64,000 nt of DNA, taken from NCBI GenBank assembly GCA_001917815.1, contig MNES01000058.1, positions 1 through 64,000 on the forward strand, in the 5' to 3' direction. The position numbers were made by a program, and so were the translations under genes. This document shows, piece after piece, positions 14,857 to 21,402 of this stretch. Positions within the stretch are counted from its first letter, which is position 1; every line of letters starts with the position of its first letter. This DNA is from Chloroflexi bacterium 13_1_40CM_65_17. Lineage in GTDB: Bacteria > Chloroflexota > Dormibacteria > Dormibacterales > Dormibacteraceae. The notes under the pieces are model-generated. The model ran no database searches. It had not been told where the DNA came from and worked only from the letters and a program-made list of their open reading frames with translations.

Positions 14857-15792
14857 GTGGCCACGGCCGTGGCCATAGACGAATCACGTAACGGCAAGGT
14901 CAACTCGCTGCAGCTGGTCCAGGTGGAAGGATTCCTGGAGGTGGCGCGCCGAGGCAGCGTTAGCCGCGCCGCCGAGGCGCTGTTCATCACCCAGCCGACC
15001 CTCACCGCGCGCCTGCACGGGCTGGAGCGGGAGCTGGGCACCCCGCTGTTCCTACGGACGCCGCATGGAATGCGGCTGACGGATGCCGGGAAGGCATGGG
15101 TTCCGTACGCGGAGCGCGCTTTGCGCGCGTTAGCCGAAGGGCGAGATGCGCTCGAACAGGTGAAGTCGGCATCGGCCGGCCACCTGGTGATTGCGGCGGC
15201 ACCTGCCGTCAGCACCTACCTCCTGCCGCAGCTTCTGGAGAAATTCGTCGCCACACACCCTCGCGTCGAGGTGTCGGTGCGCACCGGCCACTCGGAGGAC
15301 ATCGTGGAGCTTGTCCTTCGTGACGAGGTGCAGCTCGGTCTCGGTCGGGCGATCCGCCATCCTGACCTGGAGCTGCGACCGTTCCACACCGAGGAGCTGG
15401 TCCTCGTTTGCGCCCCAGACCACCCGTTCACGAAACGACGCAGCGTCGCGATGGCGGAGGTCGCCAATCAAAAGCTGATCATGTTCGATCGCACGTCCAG
15501 CTACTACGAGATCACCCAGGCCGCCTTTCTCAAGGCGGGCGCAATGCTGCGTGGCCTCATGGAGCTGGACTCGATCGAAGCCGCCAAGAAGATGGTCGAG
15601 CGCGGCCTCGGGGTGGCCCTGCTGCCGCGCACCGCCGTGGCGCGCGAGGTCGAAGGCGGGATGCTTCGCGCGGTCCGTATGAAGGACGCGCCCGCGATGC
15701 ACAACTCGATCGTCGCCTATCGCCGCCGGGATTCCGGAAAGCCAGAGGGGATCGTGGCGGCGTTCCTGGACCTGCTGAACACGATCGAATAA
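14857..15792 (+). CDS. LysR-type transcriptional regulator
   Basis: A 311-residue LysR regulator. The N-terminal winged HTH spans about residues 15-75 ('FLEVARRGSVSRAAEALFITQPTLTARLHGLERELGTPLFLR'). The effector domain spans 100-305 with the usual two Rossmann-like lobes ('HLVIAAAPAVSTYLLPQLLEKFVATHPRVEVSV'). It sits directly upstream of, and on the same strand as, the cysteine-rich peptide and isocitrate lyase genes. A perfect LysR-type dyad lies in between (15860-15876), so it probably controls them in response to a carbon metabolite. GTG 14857 is 7 nt after an ATAGAT -10-like box. Confidence 0.92.
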   Translation: MATAVAIDESRNGKVNSLQLVQVEGFLEVARRGSVSRAAEALFITQPTLTARLHGLERELGTPLFLRTPHGMRLTDAGKAWVPYAERALRALAEGRDALEQVKSASAGHLVIAAAPAVSTYLLPQLLEKFVATHPRVEVSVRTGHSEDIVELVLRDEVQLGLGRAIRHPDLELRPFHTEELVLVCAPDHPFTKRRSVAMAEVANQKLIMFDRTSSYYEITQAAFLKAGAMLRGLMELDSIEAAKKMVERGLGVALLPRTAVAREVEGGMLRAVRMKDAPAMHNSIVAYRRRDSGKPEGIVAAFLDLLNTIE

Positions 15793-15794
15793 AT

Positions 15795-15829
15795 CCCTCT
15801 CCCCCTCAGGGAGAGGGCTGGAGAGGGGC
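15795..15829. repeat. CCCTCTCC/GGAGAGGG hairpin repeat (copy B, variant)
   Basis: CCCTCTCCC and GGGAGAGGG (15795-15803, 15809-15817) form a 9-bp stem followed by CTGGAGAGGGG, directly after the lysR stop. It resembles the other hairpin repeats in layout but has a different core. It probably ends or stabilises the lysR transcript. Confidence 0.55.
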
Positions 15830-15859
15830 GTGAGTACTCCACGACCCCTATCGGTTTTA

Positions 15860-15876
15860 TTGATCATGGTGATCAA
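15860..15876. promoter_or_regulatory. LysR-type operator (TTGATCA-TGG-TGATCAA)
   Basis: A perfect 7-bp inverted repeat with a 3-bp centre in an AT-rich island, containing the T-N11-A pattern of LysR sites. Its centre lies about 55 bp upstream of the inferred transcription start at 15923, the normal place for an activating LysR site. A second palindrome, CAATTAATTG (15879-15888), adjoins the -35. Confidence 0.65.
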
Positions 15877-15885
15877 ATCAATTAA

Positions 15886-15922
15886 TTGGACTTATATCGA
15901 CGAAGTTGATAGGTTCACGTCC
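15886..15922 (+). promoter_or_regulatory. promoter of the cysteine-rich peptide-isocitrate lyase operon
   Basis: TTGGAC (15886-15891), an 18-bp spacer, TAGGTT (15910-15915), then 7 nt to the ATG at 15923. The mRNA would be leaderless for the peptide, and the -35 overlaps the palindrome next to the LysR site. Confidence 0.6.
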
Positions 15923-16024
15923 ATGGATAGTCACGATCAATCCAATGACCTCGAGACGGCGGGTGCTACCACGTACGAGTGCGAATGCCCCGAGCCTTGC
16001 AACTGCGATCACGAGAACGAGTAG
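15923..16024 (+). CDS. 33-residue cysteine-rich leaderless peptide upstream of isocitrate lyase
   Basis: A short frame of 33 residues beginning 'MDSHDQSND' and ending with 'YECECPEPCNCDHENE', a CxC-x3-CxC-x-H cluster in an acidic tail. The ATG lies 7 nt after a TAGGTT -10, so ribosomes would load on the very 5' end of the mRNA. The stop is 4 nt before the isocitrate lyase ATG, which favours translational coupling. It may be a metal-binding mini-protein or a regulatory upstream ORF; leaderless cysteine-rich upstream ORFs are known as cysteine-responsive attenuators in mycobacteria. A longer frame from GTG 15830 exists but reads through the LysR site and promoter. Confidence 0.6.
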   Translation: MDSHDQSNDLETAGATTYECECPEPCNCDHENE

Positions 16025-16028
16025 CCAG

Positions 16029-17156
16029 ATGGAGTTGATTTCGACGCCACTCCTGCCGGAGGGCTTCAAGGTGCCGGCGTCGCGCAGCGAGGACCCCAGC
16101 CGCCGGCTGCGCAGGCTGCTCGCGACCAAGCCTTACGTGTTCGGGCCAGGAGTTTACGACCCCTTCGGCGCGGAGCTGGTCATGTATCACGGCTTCGACG
16201 CCGTGTACTTCAGCGGGTACTCGTTCGCCATCGGTCATCTAGGCACGACCGACATGGACATCTACTCATCGGTGGAGATTGCGGACGGCGCCCGACGCAC
16301 CGTCAGCGCCCTGCGCAAGTTCCAGCTCACGATGGCGATGGGCGACCCGGAGAAAGGGGCCGCCCCGGTTCATCTCGAGATCCCGCCCGTCGTGGTCGAC
16401 ATGGATGCGGGCTACGGAAACCTGTTCAACGTCCAGCGCACGATCGACCTCTATGTCAAGGCGGGCGTTGCCGCCGCGCATCTGGAAGACCAGGTCATGC
16501 CCAAGCGCTGCGGTCACATCGCGGGCAAAGCACTGATCTCCGCCGACGAATTCGTCGGCAAGCTCAAGATGATGCGGAACGCGGCCGATGACCTCGGCCA
16601 TCGAGACTTCGTCATCATCGCCCGCACCGACGGCGTTTCCGCGACCGAGGCCCCCGAGAGCAAGCGTGGCATCCAGCTCGCCATCGATCGCGGGCTGCGG
16701 TACCTGGACAGCGGCGTCCCCGACCTGCTCTGGTGCGAGTTTCCCACCGCGGAGCGTGGACCGACGGAGCAGTTCTGCGGCGAGATCCGCAAACGCTTTC
16801 CCGGAGCGCGTTTCGCGTTCAACTACTCCTCGTCGTTCAAGTGGTTCAACGAGAATGACCCGATCACCTGGGATCAGCTGGCGCAGCTCGGCGTCGGTTT
16901 CATCTTCATCACCCTCGCCCTGCAGCACGCAGCCGGGCACGGCATTTCGGTTCTGCTCGACGACCTCAAGCACAAGCAGGAGCAGGGCTACATGGCGCTG
17001 CAGCGAAAGGAGTGGGCGGAGGACGCGGACATTCCGACGCGGAGCCACCACCTGTTCACCGGCGTGCCCTATCACCAGCATGTCGGCCAGGTGTATGGGG
17101 CGACACGTCTGAGCGAAGACCTCGACGAGCACCTCGAGCTCTCGAAGGTAGTCTGA
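16029..17156 (+). CDS. aceA: isocitrate lyase / PEP mutase superfamily enzyme
   Basis: A 375-residue TIM-barrel protein. 'MPKRCGHIAGK' is the isocitrate lyase signature with the catalytic Cys. 'VVVDMDAGYGN' and 'AAHLEDQ' supply magnesium ligands, and 'IARTDGVSATEAPESKRG' is the conserved TDxxxA region. 'NYSSSFKW' matches the NxSPSxNW substrate loop of isocitrate lyases. It should split isocitrate into glyoxylate and succinate for growth on acetate or fatty acids. It is about 50 residues shorter than the common 430-residue enzyme, so 2-methylisocitrate lyase or a related activity cannot be excluded. No malate synthase is in the window. The ATG follows the cysteine-rich peptide by 4 nt. Confidence 0.82.
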   Translation: MELISTPLLPEGFKVPASRSEDPSRRLRRLLATKPYVFGPGVYDPFGAELVMYHGFDAVYFSGYSFAIGHLGTTDMDIYSSVEIADGARRTVSALRKFQLTMAMGDPEKGAAPVHLEIPPVVVDMDAGYGNLFNVQRTIDLYVKAGVAAAHLEDQVMPKRCGHIAGKALISADEFVGKLKMMRNAADDLGHRDFVIIARTDGVSATEAPESKRGIQLAIDRGLRYLDSGVPDLLWCEFPTAERGPTEQFCGEIRKRFPGARFAFNYSSSFKWFNENDPITWDQLAQLGVGFIFITLALQHAAGHGISVLLDDLKHKQEQGYMALQRKEWAEDADIPTRSHHLFTGVPYHQHVGQVYGATRLSEDLDEHLELSKVV

Positions 17157-17212: not shown

Positions 17213-18907
17213 GTGATCTTCTATCCGTTTCGCTACATCTGGTGGCTTCTGTCGAGCCTGCGCCGAAGAATCGGCAAGGCGCCCGACTACGTGCTCTACG
17301 TGCTCGAAACCGCCCTTCCCACGCTGCCCGACCCGCCCGGGCCGTTCTGGCAGCGATTCGTCTCTACGCCGCGCATGAGCATCAAGGAGCTGGGCGAGCA
17401 ACTCGAGGCCATCGCTCACGATCCGCGAACCAAGGGCGTCGTGCTCCACCTCCGGCCGGTGGCCATGCCGATGGCAAGCCTGCAGGACTTGCGAGAGCTC
17501 GTATCCACGCTGCGCGCGGCGGGCAAGCGCGTGATTGCATGGGCGCCGTTCTACACGACGGGAACCTACTACCTGGCCTGCGCATGCGACGAGATCCTTC
17601 TGATGCCGGCAGGCCTGGTGCGCCCGCTCGGTTTCTCGTCGATGGGAGTCTTCCTCGCCGAAGGCCTGGCGCGCATCGGTGTCAAGGCTGACTTCGTCCA
17701 GGTCTCGCCCTACAAAACCGCGGCCGACCCGCTCACGAGATCAAGGATGTCGCCCGAGATGCGCGAGCAGATCACCTGGCTCCTCGACTCGAATCACAAG
17801 CAGCTCGTGGAGGCGATCGCGGAGAGCCGGCACATCGAGCCCGATGCCGCGGCGAAGCTTGTCGACGGCTCCCCCTACACCGACAGCGACGCGCTCGAGC
17901 AGCGGGTCGTCGATGGGGTGCTCCCGGAGGAGAAGCTCCCGGATCACATCGGCAGTGGCGCCGAACGGGCCAGGATCGCGACCTGGGAGCAGGCTCGCCG
18001 CAGGCTCCCATCCCGGCCCCCGACCACGGGCAGAGGAACGTACGTCGCGATCATGCGGGTGGAGGGCACGATCGTCGACGGGCGCAACGGGCGGCTGCCG
18101 ATCACTCCACCGATCGATCTGCCACTGGTCGGGGAGGACCGCGCCGGCGACCTGAGCGTGGTGCCGCTCGCGCGGCAGGTCGCGACGGACAAGCGCGCTG
18201 CGGCCGCGGTTCTGTTCGTGAACTCACGCGGCGGATCGGCGACGGCCTCGGAGGCGATGCGCCAGGCTATCGAGCTCATCGCCAAACGCAAACCGCTGGT
18301 GATCGCCATGGGCGCGATGGCAGCGTCTGGCGGCTACCTCGTCTCGACGCCCGGCCAGTGGATCGTCGCGCGCCCCGGCACTCTGACGGGTTCGATCGGG
18401 GTTCTGACCGGCAAACTCGTTACCGGCGGCGTGTTCTCGAAGCTGCAGGTAAATCGCGACACCATTGCCTTTGGGAAGCACGTCACGCTGGAAAGTGACG
18501 ACGATCCGTTCACCGATGAGGAACGGACGATCGTCCACCACGAGATCAACCGGATGTACGAGCTGTTCCTCGAAGCCGTCGGGACATCGAGGCGGATGAC
18601 GCGCGACGAAGTGGAGCCGGTGGCCGGTGGGCGCGTCTGGACCGGCAGCCAGGCACTGGAGCGAAAGCTGGTCGACGAGCTTGGCGGCCTCGATGCGGCG
18701 GTCCGGAAGGCGCGCAGCCTTGCCGGGCTCGACGCTTCGGCGCCGGCGCGAGAGGTGAAGGCGCCGCGAAAGCCGGTGCCGCCGCGCGCGGTGCCGACCT
18801 CCGCCGGCTACGCCGGCTACGCCGGCTACGTGCTAGAGGGACTCGGCTTGCTCAGCCGGGCGCCGGCCCTGGCGGTGATGGAGTTCCTGCCAAGCGACAT
18901 TTCCTGA
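17213..18907 (+). CDS. sppA: signal peptide peptidase SppA, long (67K) type
   Basis: A 564-residue protein with two tandem S49/ClpP-like domains (about 60-240 and 285-500). The probable catalytic dyad is Lys168 ('SPYKTAADP') in the first domain and Ser372 ('AASGGYLV') in the second, as in E. coli SppA. The N-terminal 'FYPFRYIWWLLSSL' is a single membrane anchor. It degrades released signal peptides at the membrane. A TAAGCT -10 (17190-17195) and GAGGGCGG lie upstream of the GTG. The Pro- and Ala-rich C-terminus contains three exact GCCGGCTAC repeats at 18803-18829. Confidence 0.88.
   Translation: MIFYPFRYIWWLLSSLRRRIGKAPDYVLYVLETALPTLPDPPGPFWQRFVSTPRMSIKELGEQLEAIAHDPRTKGVVLHLRPVAMPMASLQDLRELVSTLRAAGKRVIAWAPFYTTGTYYLACACDEILLMPAGLVRPLGFSSMGVFLAEGLARIGVKADFVQVSPYKTAADPLTRSRMSPEMREQITWLLDSNHKQLVEAIAESRHIEPDAAAKLVDGSPYTDSDALEQRVVDGVLPEEKLPDHIGSGAERARIATWEQARRRLPSRPPTTGRGTYVAIMRVEGTIVDGRNGRLPITPPIDLPLVGEDRAGDLSVVPLARQVATDKRAAAAVLFVNSRGGSATASEAMRQAIELIAKRKPLVIAMGAMAASGGYLVSTPGQWIVARPGTLTGSIGVLTGKLVTGGVFSKLQVNRDTIAFGKHVTLESDDDPFTDEERTIVHHEINRMYELFLEAVGTSRRMTRDEVEPVAGGRVWTGSQALERKLVDELGGLDAAVRKARSLAGLDASAPAREVKAPRKPVPPRAVPTSAGYAGYAGYVLEGLGLLSRAPALAVMEFLPSDIS
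18803..18829 (+). repeat. 3 x 9-bp tandem repeat inside sppA
   Basis: Three perfect copies of GCCGGCTAC encode (AGY)x3 near the SppA C-terminus, outside the catalytic domains. Slippage would change length in frame. Confidence 0.8.
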
Positions 18908-19011: not shown

Positions 19012-21402
19012 TCAGTCCAGGGGTGCGAACTTGTCGGGGTTCCGCTCGCGCATCAGCTCGTAGACCGCTTCGACGACGCTCTCGCGATTCGGCTTGCTGA
19101 AGTAGTCGCCATCCGGCCCGTAGGCCGGCCGGTTGGGCGAAGCCGCCAGCGTTCGCGGCGCGGCATCGAGATGCCACCACCCGTTCTGGCGTTCGAGAAC
19201 CTGCTGCATCATGAACGCCGAAGCGCCGCCCGGCATGTCCTCATCGAGGAAAAGCGCGGCGTGCGTCTTCTCGAGCGAGCGGACGATCGACCTATCGGTG
19301 TCGAACGGGTTGAGAGTCTGAACGTCGATTACCTCGCAGGACACCCCAAGCTCCTCGAGGGCTCGCGCGGCATCGAGCGCGATCGCGCAGCAAGCACCGT
19401 AGGTCACCACGGTCACGTCGGTGCCCGCGCACAGCACCTCTGGAACTCCCAATGGAACCGTGAACTCCCCGACGTTGTCGGGCACCCGTTCCTTGAGCCG
19501 GTAGCCGTTCAACACCTCGATCACCACCCCCGGGTTGTCCCCGCGGAAGAGCGTGTTGTAGAAGCCGGCAGCCTGGGTCATGTTGCGAGGCACGGCGATG
19601 TACATCCCGTGGAGGGCGTTGATCAGCACCGCCATAGGCGACCCTGCATGCCAGATGCCGACCAGCCGATGGCCCTTCGTGCGCATGACGACCGGAGCCT
19701 TCTGGCCTCCGGCGGTTCGCCAGTGGAGACTGGCCAGGTCGTCCGACGCGACCTCGAGCGCGTACAGGAAATAGTCCAGGTACTGGATGTCGCAGATGGG
19801 GCGCAGGCCGCGCATGGCGGCGCCGATGGACTGGCCCAAGATGGTCGCCTCGCGGATGCCGGTATCGGTCAGGCGCAGATCGCCGTATTTAGCCTGCAGC
19901 CCCTCGAAGACGAGGTTCACGTCACCCAACCGTCCGACGTCCTCGCCGATGACGAACAAACGCGGGTCGCGCGCGAAGTTGGCGTCGAAGTTGCGCAGCA
20001 GGACCTGCCGGCCGTCGACGGTCGGCGACTTGTCCGAGTAGACCGCCGGTACGACAGGCACGTTCAGCGGGGATTGATCTGAATTGCTGTAGACGTGAGA
20101 GTTGTAGCGCTCGCTGTTTTCGCGCTTGTATCTCTCGATAAACCGAACCAGCTCGGTGCGCTCGGGGGACGCGGTCCCGCGCAGCGTGCGCAGCGCGAAC
20201 GCTGCCCCGGAGATGATCGCGGACCGCGTGACCTTGTTGGCCTCGTTCAGAGTCGACGCGACCTCGGCCACCTTCGGGGTGTCGATTCGCCGGAGGATGC
20301 TCACCACGCGGTCTCGTTCTTTCCGGATGGGCGCCTGGTACGCCTCCCAGGCAAGGTCGCGCGCCGCCTCCACGGCCTCTTTGTCGGCCGCCTCCCATCC
20401 CTCCAGCTGTGAGTCGCCCGCTATGCCCGACTCGATGATCCAATCGCGCATCCGGGTGATGCAGTCGTATTCGACCTCGAAGCGGAGCCGCTCCTTCGTT
20501 TTGTATCGCTCGTGGCTGCCGCTCGTCGAATGGCCCTGCGGCTGCGTCAGCTCGGTGATGTGAAAGAGCGCCGGTTTGTGCTCGCGACGCACGCGCTCGA
20601 CGCCGTTCGCGTAGGCCTCGACCAGGGCCGAGTAGTCCCAGCCGCGTACGACGTAGATGTCGACTCCCGGGCGATCGTCAGGGATGAATCCACGGAGCAC
20701 ATCGGAAATCGAGGCTTTGGTGGTCTCCGCGCTGATCGGCACCGAGATTCCATATCCGTCATCCCAAACCGACAGCGCGATCGGCACCTGGAGGACGCCG
20801 GCCGCGTTGAACGTCTCCCAGAAGTGGCCTTCGCTGGTCGCCGCGTCGCCGATGGTGCCGAAGGCCACCTCGTCGCCGTTGACCGAGAAGCCGTCCTGGG
20901 CCTTGCGCAGCTGGTGGTTGTTTCGATACAGCTTCGACGCGTATGCGAGGCCGAGCAGCCGTGGCATCCAGCCTGCGACGTTGGAGACGTCCGCGGTCGA
21001 GTTGAGCATCTCCACCGACCGCTTGAAATCGCCCCGGTCGTCCACGAACCTGGTCGCAAAGTGGTTCCCCATCTGGCGGCCGCCCGACGCCGGGTCCGCG
21101 TCGAGATTCGTGTTGCCGTACAGCTGTGAGAAGAACTCGCGGACGTTCGACATGCGCGTCGCCCACATGAAGGTCTGGTCGCGGTAGTAGCCCGCCCGCC
21201 AGTCGCCGGGACGAAAGGCCTTGGCCATCGCCACCTGGGCGACCTCCTTGCCGTCGCCGAAGATCCCGAAGGTGGCGTTTCCGCGCAGCACCTCGGCGCG
21301 CCCGATGATGCTGGCGCGGCGGCTGCTGTAAGCAAGTCGGTAATCGGCGATTACGGTTTCGGCGGCGACTGCGAGCTTGGAGTTGCGAAGCGTTTTGGCC
21401 AT
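19012..21402 (-). CDS. fused alpha-beta E1 component of a branched-chain (2-oxoisovalerate) dehydrogenase
   Basis: A 796-residue fusion. Residues about 30-370 are the E1-alpha (thiamine-diphosphate) domain with 'GDAATSEGHFWETFNAAG' and 'QPQGHSTSGSHERY'. Residues about 450-780 are the E1-beta transketolase-like domain ('FVIGEDVGRLGDVNLVFEGL', 'DIQYLDYFLYALE', 'RTKGHRLVGIWHAGSP', 'LDEDMPGGASAFM'). It decarboxylates 2-oxo acids and passes the acyl group to the lipoyl arm of an E2 that is not encoded nearby. Similar fused E1 proteins occur in Bacteroidota and some other phyla. It lies downstream of a TPR regulator on the same strand, about 20 bp away, near the ilv genes. The ATG has no strong ribosome site. 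Confidence 0.88.
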   Translation of the reverse strand: MAKTLRNSKLAVAAETVIADYRLAYSSRRASIIGRAEVLRGNATFGIFGDGKEVAQVAMAKAFRPGDWRAGYYRDQTFMWATRMSNVREFFSQLYGNTNLDADPASGGRQMGNHFATRFVDDRGDFKRSVEMLNSTADVSNVAGWMPRLLGLAYASKLYRNNHQLRKAQDGFSVNGDEVAFGTIGDAATSEGHFWETFNAAGVLQVPIALSVWDDGYGISVPISAETTKASISDVLRGFIPDDRPGVDIYVVRGWDYSALVEAYANGVERVRREHKPALFHITELTQPQGHSTSGSHERYKTKERLRFEVEYDCITRMRDWIIESGIAGDSQLEGWEAADKEAVEAARDLAWEAYQAPIRKERDRVVSILRRIDTPKVAEVASTLNEANKVTRSAIISGAAFALRTLRGTASPERTELVRFIERYKRENSERYNSHVYSNSDQSPLNVPVVPAVYSDKSPTVDGRQVLLRNFDANFARDPRLFVIGEDVGRLGDVNLVFEGLQAKYGDLRLTDTGIREATILGQSIGAAMRGLRPICDIQYLDYFLYALEVASDDLASLHWRTAGGQKAPVVMRTKGHRLVGIWHAGSPMAVLINALHGMYIAVPRNMTQAAGFYNTLFRGDNPGVVIEVLNGYRLKERVPDNVGEFTVPLGVPEVLCAGTDVTVVTYGACCAIALDAARALEELGVSCEVIDVQTLNPFDTDRSIVRSLEKTHAALFLDEDMPGGASAFMMQQVLERQNGWWHLDAAPRTLAASPNRPAYGPDGDYFSKPNRESVVEAVYELMRERNPDKFAPLD

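Follow-up and report, generated by a model that had tools for sequence, protein, structure and literature searches.

A conserved small cysteine-bearing protein family encoded with isocitrate lyase and malate synthase genes in Chloroflexota and Actinomycetota

Within the window, the 64-kb stretch of DNA analysed here, a 33-codon open reading frame lies directly before a gene for an isocitrate lyase (ICL)-type enzyme, and comparison with relatives gives good support for a real, conserved and previously unnamed small protein family that is tied to the glyoxylate shunt. This finding is carried by conservation at the level of translation, by the geometry of the promoter, by linkage to ICL or to malate synthase (MS), whatever the order of the genes, and by co-occurrence with ICL. 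The peptide very likely acts in trans as a protein tied to the shunt, and is probably an accessory or regulatory protein that has so far gone undescribed; our literature search found no description of the family. The glyoxylate shunt decides between carbon retention and burning in cells on acetate or fats, and drugs are aimed at ICL in other bacteria.

The gene order in the window is LysR-type gene, promoter, 33-codon frame, ICL-type gene and SppA (Table 1), and the MAG that carries it is 84% complete. The 375-aa enzyme scores above the PF00463 cut-off and has the catalytic KRCGH motif, with C161 as the conserved catalytic cysteine, and the ICL fold; its top-ranking hits in PDB and by fold are all isocitrate lyases, the first being that of Chloroflexus (6lrp). 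It stays below the NCBIfam equivalog cut-offs, and both isocitrate and methylisocitrate are possible substrates. On the minus strand, at 19012-21402, a single 796-aa ORF unites E1 alpha- and beta-type dehydrogenase domains.

Table 1. Features of the peptide-ICL locus in the window
Feature	Position	Strand	Basis or remark
LysR-type regulator	14857-15792	+	PF03466/PF00126
Putative LysR-type box ATCGGTTTTATTGAT (ATC-N9-GAT)	15850-15864	+	-73 to -59 relative to peptide ATG
Inverted repeat TTGATCA-TGG-TGATCAA, overlapping the LysR-type box	15860-15876	+	Sequence
-35-like TTGGAC	15886-15891	+	TTGGAC/TTTGAC in almost all of the 30 relatives; spacer of 18 nt
-10-like TAGGTT (TANNNT)	15910-15915	+	30/30 relatives, also f3 loci
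Gene of the 33-aa peptide, predicted leaderless, MDSHDQSNDLETAGATTYECECPEPCNCDHENE	15923-16024	+	Stop TAG 16022-16024
Conserved C-terminal motif ECECPEPCNCDHENE	15977-16021	+	Alignment A1 and codon analysis
ICL-type enzyme, 375 aa	16029-17156	+	PF00463/PF13714, KRCGH catalytic motif
SppA	17213-18907

The sequence-only reading had proposed a TTGGAC-N18-TAGGTT promoter in front of a leaderless peptide gene that ends 4 nt short of the ICL ATG. Both hexamers are present with 18 nt between them and 7 nt between TAGGTT and the peptide ATG, and the 4-nt gap agrees with the coordinates of the two genes. The comparison supports the leaderless start: in all 30 relatives a TANNNT element precedes the peptide ATG, ending 7 nt from it in 28 loci and 6 nt from it in two. 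The same spacing to a start was found at only 2 of 786 plus-strand ATGs of the window, and the whole promoter-plus-start arrangement occurs once in the window when both strands are searched. A generic sigma-70 scan of the window left this promoter unflagged because its hexamers are weak. The position of the ATC-N9-GAT box is constant within 1 nt in 27 of the 30 relatives, several of which carry paired changes in it (ATCGG..CCGAT to ATAGG..CCTAT). A LysR-type gene is near the peptide in 39 of the 80 fetched loci, and the one in the window is the probable regulator of the peptide-ICL promoter. With a predicted LysR site around -65 and the -10 element ending 7 nt upstream, the mRNA would begin at the ATG, and a leaderless start at 15923 is very likely. 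This geometry agrees with published work in which a TANNNT some 12 nt ahead of the start is the mark of leaderless genes (PMC3160421).

Genus g10 (L181, L182) lacks the peptide, and there this promoter stands 6 nt before the ICL ATG; ICL itself appears to be leaderless there, which would make these loci a natural control for the reading of the promoter. The promoter is also retained in L180/L193 (G018), with a 28-aa GTG frame lacking Cys as the leaderless small ORF, perhaps a decayed or replaced peptide. Just 3' of the LysR stop in the window (15795-15817) there is a perfect inverted repeat, CCCTCTCCCCCTCAGGGAGAGGG, which is REP-like or terminator-like and was not found in the fetched loci of relatives.

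A tblastn query with the longest possible frame (52 aa, from ATG 15866) gave matches in every genome of the same genus and in most of the family. This longer ORF was rejected, its extra part being conserved promoter DNA that is open by chance and not protein. In the alignment of 30 relatives six loci have stops or frameshifts in the part upstream of the internal Met, and many have no start codon for it; the DNA of this part is conserved despite the broken frame, and the peptide's own frame is conserved. Since the extension is interrupted in relatives, the start at 15923, that of the sequence-only reading, is the right one.

In the 29 closest copies, a codon set gathered without imposing the motif, pN/pS was 0.15 for the final 16 codons as against 0.82 for the eight that precede them, and Cys, Pro, Asp, His, Asn and the Glu in front of them show little or no variation although third positions vary. 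The last 16 codons are thus under strong selection at the protein level. They encode the motif E-C-x-C-P-x-x-C-x-x-D-H-x-N-E-stop, with C20, C22, P23, C26, D29, H30 and N32 as conserved residues; its core CxCx3CxxDH occurs once in the six frames of the window. The N-terminal half is probably a variable, disordered spacer, and the peptide alone is predicted to be unstructured. A mixed alignment of peptide and ICL (A2) was misaligned and was discarded.

Searching 84,980 species with the DNA pattern ECxCPxxCxxDHxN gave 80 loci; the pattern fixes its letters, which makes their invariance in alignment A1, where only three Cys are invariant, partly circular. The motif finishes at the stop or one residue before it in 78 of the 80 loci; the matches L037 and L047, with the motif away from the C-terminus, were dropped. 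The profile match G366 has no motif. A pattern-free profile search returned further variants, for example ACECPYDCPRDHENE and AECGCPEWCQLDHEHE, and the tblastn set contained VECNCFDDCQRDHETD, all keeping CxCx3CxxDH. Many soil Chloroflexota share the conserved C-terminal tail. By profile search the peptide was present in 41 of 400 sampled Chloroflexota genomes; it was found in 3 of 397 Actinomycetota genomes and at one locus on a contig titled Eremiobacterota (MAG), and each of 17 genomes checked has one copy. The Chloroflexota-like peptide-ICL pair on a contig titled Steroidobacteraceae (L101) may be a binning error, because its ICL is 71% identical to that of the window. No family match was obtained for the peptide in Pfam, NCBIfam or PDB, no solved structural relative was found, and the viral contigs searched gave no match.

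The sequence-only reading would have been refuted had relatives lacked the peptide before aceA. All 30 first relatives carry it immediately 5' of ICL, and the tie between a conserved Cys-rich peptide and ICL passed this check. Among the 75 assessable motif loci (three further loci, cut too close to judge, lie outside this number), 69 adjoin ICL or MS, with ICL directly downstream in 63 and the peptide just after MS in 6. The orders include peptide-ICL-MS (L058), peptide-MS-ICL (L185), ICL-peptide-MS (L219) and ICL-MS-peptide-GntR (L032, L074), and the peptide follows ICL-MS at the 3' end of the operon in L032, L074 and L095. The partner ICLs are of at least three types, with 375 aa (window), about 430 aa and about 720-830 aa, the latter two being only about 30% identical to the ICL of the window. 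The peptide stands alone in L046, L062 and L091; the copies in L062 and L091 are leaderless by the same promoter geometry. In all, five copies from MAGs labelled Actinobacteria adjoin neither ICL nor MS, and the genomes concerned have ICL on other contigs. Neither enzyme gene lies beside the peptide in L053 and L070, which come from Actinobacteria-labelled MAGs; L053 has only about 300 nt downstream of the peptide, and in L070 the peptide is followed by a GntR regulator of the type that comes after ICL-MS-peptide in Thermoleophilia.

These arrangements bear on the proposal that the frame is a leaderless cysteine leader, in which ribosomes slow at Cys codons and ICL is altered through attenuation or translational coupling. 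Its leaderless geometry, the 4-nt gap in the window, the stop/start overlap in some loci and the mycobacterial precedent (PMC4633059, PMC9031893) are in keeping with such a leader, but the Cys codons of the window peptide are non-contiguous (CECPEPCNC), contiguous Cys being found in some family members only and not conserved, and the conservation of Pro, Asp, His, Glu and Asn equals that of Cys, the whole C-terminal motif being selected as protein. Moreover, the spacing to ICL ranges between overlapping genes and gaps of more than 120 nt, some Actinomycetota copies are led by a Shine-Dalgarno sequence after ICL-MS or stand alone, no plus-strand terminator was found near the peptide and an Rfam search gave no known RNA element there. 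Because a leader has no means of acting when it lies 3' of the operon's other genes or on a different contig, cis attenuation is not the conserved function; the cysteine-responsive attenuation of the earlier reading is not sustained, and we regard a cysteine leader as highly improbable. An extra cis effect on the ICL of the window through the 4-nt gap is possible.

PF00463 was detected in 39 of the 41 profile-positive Chloroflexota genomes versus 211 of 400 overall (Fisher p 5.5e-10, not corrected for relatedness), and the two profile-positive genomes without it are the two weakest matches. In the family of the window, genomes without ICL are also without the peptide. The peptide is not essential to ICL, because several genera keep ICL without it; it is lost in some genera, and no ICL residues convincingly tracked this loss. 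The LysR gene is retained where the peptide is lost, which speaks against the peptide being a co-regulator of the adjacent transcription factor, as an anti-activator or sensor for LysR or GntR. A LysR gene is indeed nearby in Chloroflexota and a GntR gene in Actinomycetota, but the type of regulator switches while ICL/MS stays constant, and we consider this role very unlikely.

MS is present in 37 of 42 genomes of the window's family, and the peptide is linked to both enzymes in several orders, as would suit a scaffold that bridges ICL to MS or a peptide whose thiols trap reactive glyoxylate. However, a ternary complex finds no support in the analysis and in that family no MS gene was seen next to peptide and ICL; we consider this function unlikely. 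MS was also not found in the window's own MAG, which is incomplete, and this may be a gap.

Taken as a whole, the best explanation is a trans-acting small protein with a metal or redox C-terminus that docks on and tunes ICL/MS, to which we give slightly less than an even chance. The LysR-regulated promoter would start the mRNA at the peptide ATG, and the peptide would be translated first and ICL second. The C-terminus, C-x-C-P-x-x-C-x-x-D-H-x-N-E, may then bind metal or switch its redox state and dock on ICL and/or MS, and the docked peptide could adjust the enzymes or couple them, much as CP12 does. The conserved end has a free carboxylate, three Cys, Asp-His and Asn-Glu, and reads as a metal/redox site plus docking tail; metal or redox binding, physical docking and the direction of the effect are what we infer. 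The mechanism by itself, a CP12-like docking of a metal/redox C-terminus on ICL and/or MS, is put forward tentatively, and the narrower version of a dedicated effector whose C-terminal metal/thiol switch docks into ICL (and MS), a CP12-like device independently invented in non-photosynthetic bacteria, is doubtful. In L079, a natural read-through frame of peptide, 16-aa linker and ICL, AlphaFold2 gave a disordered (pLDDT 30-40) and undocked peptide, from a shallow peptide alignment and with partner subunits absent; the ICL part was modelled well, with Chloroflexus ICL 6lrp as best PDB match.

A metallothionein-like or metallochaperone peptide could instead sequester thiophilic metals and shield the catalytic Cys of ICL, or handle metal for the pathway. 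CxC..C..DH is a plausible ligand set for Zn, Cu or Fe, and ICL has C161 to be shielded, but the metals of ICL are Mg/Mn, to which Cys is a poor ligand, and scores against metallothionein, SWIM and CDGSH models were not meaningful. Metal binding, suggested in the sequence-only reading, is kept as a possibility and its metallothionein variant is weak, as only three Cys are invariant; a metallothionein-like or metallochaperone role seems unlikely. That a conserved small protein accompanies ICL and MS, whatever the gene order and in no fewer than two phyla, suggests a layer of regulation or assembly in this pathway that standard annotation misses, and with so small a peptide in vitro work would be quick.

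The mycobacterial polycysteine attenuators resemble the peptide gene as leaderless, Cys-bearing short ORFs at the 5' end of an operon, whereas the peptide is conserved at the protein level, has non-contiguous Cys and a non-sulfur target, and elsewhere lies downstream or alone. DUF6907 (PF21848) matched weakly in 2 of 47 members, with a best E-value of 0.2 that is short of the Pfam cut-off and a model of 116 positions. CDGSH iron-sulfur and SWIM zinc motifs share CxC followed by Cys and His, with the C-x3-H step as in CDGSH, but differ in spacing, and no Pfam match was significant (best SWIM 0.043, one member). Bacterial metallothioneins are also short and contain CxC, but the peptide has far fewer Cys and matches no Pfam or NCBIfam model of them. 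Neither the window peptide nor any of the 47 members matched the Pfam family of CP12, the redox small protein of the Calvin cycle that links GAPDH to PRK and whose disordered C-terminus bears Cys and inserts a near-terminal Glu into the active site of GAPDH (PMC4436894). The two are unrelated in sequence and differ in pathway, in Cys spacing and in the conserved Asp-His of the peptide, for which docking is a prediction. The analogy would thus be functional only, and lies in small size, a variable disordered N-terminus, a conserved Cys-bearing C-terminus with a near-terminal Glu, and two enzymes of one pathway.
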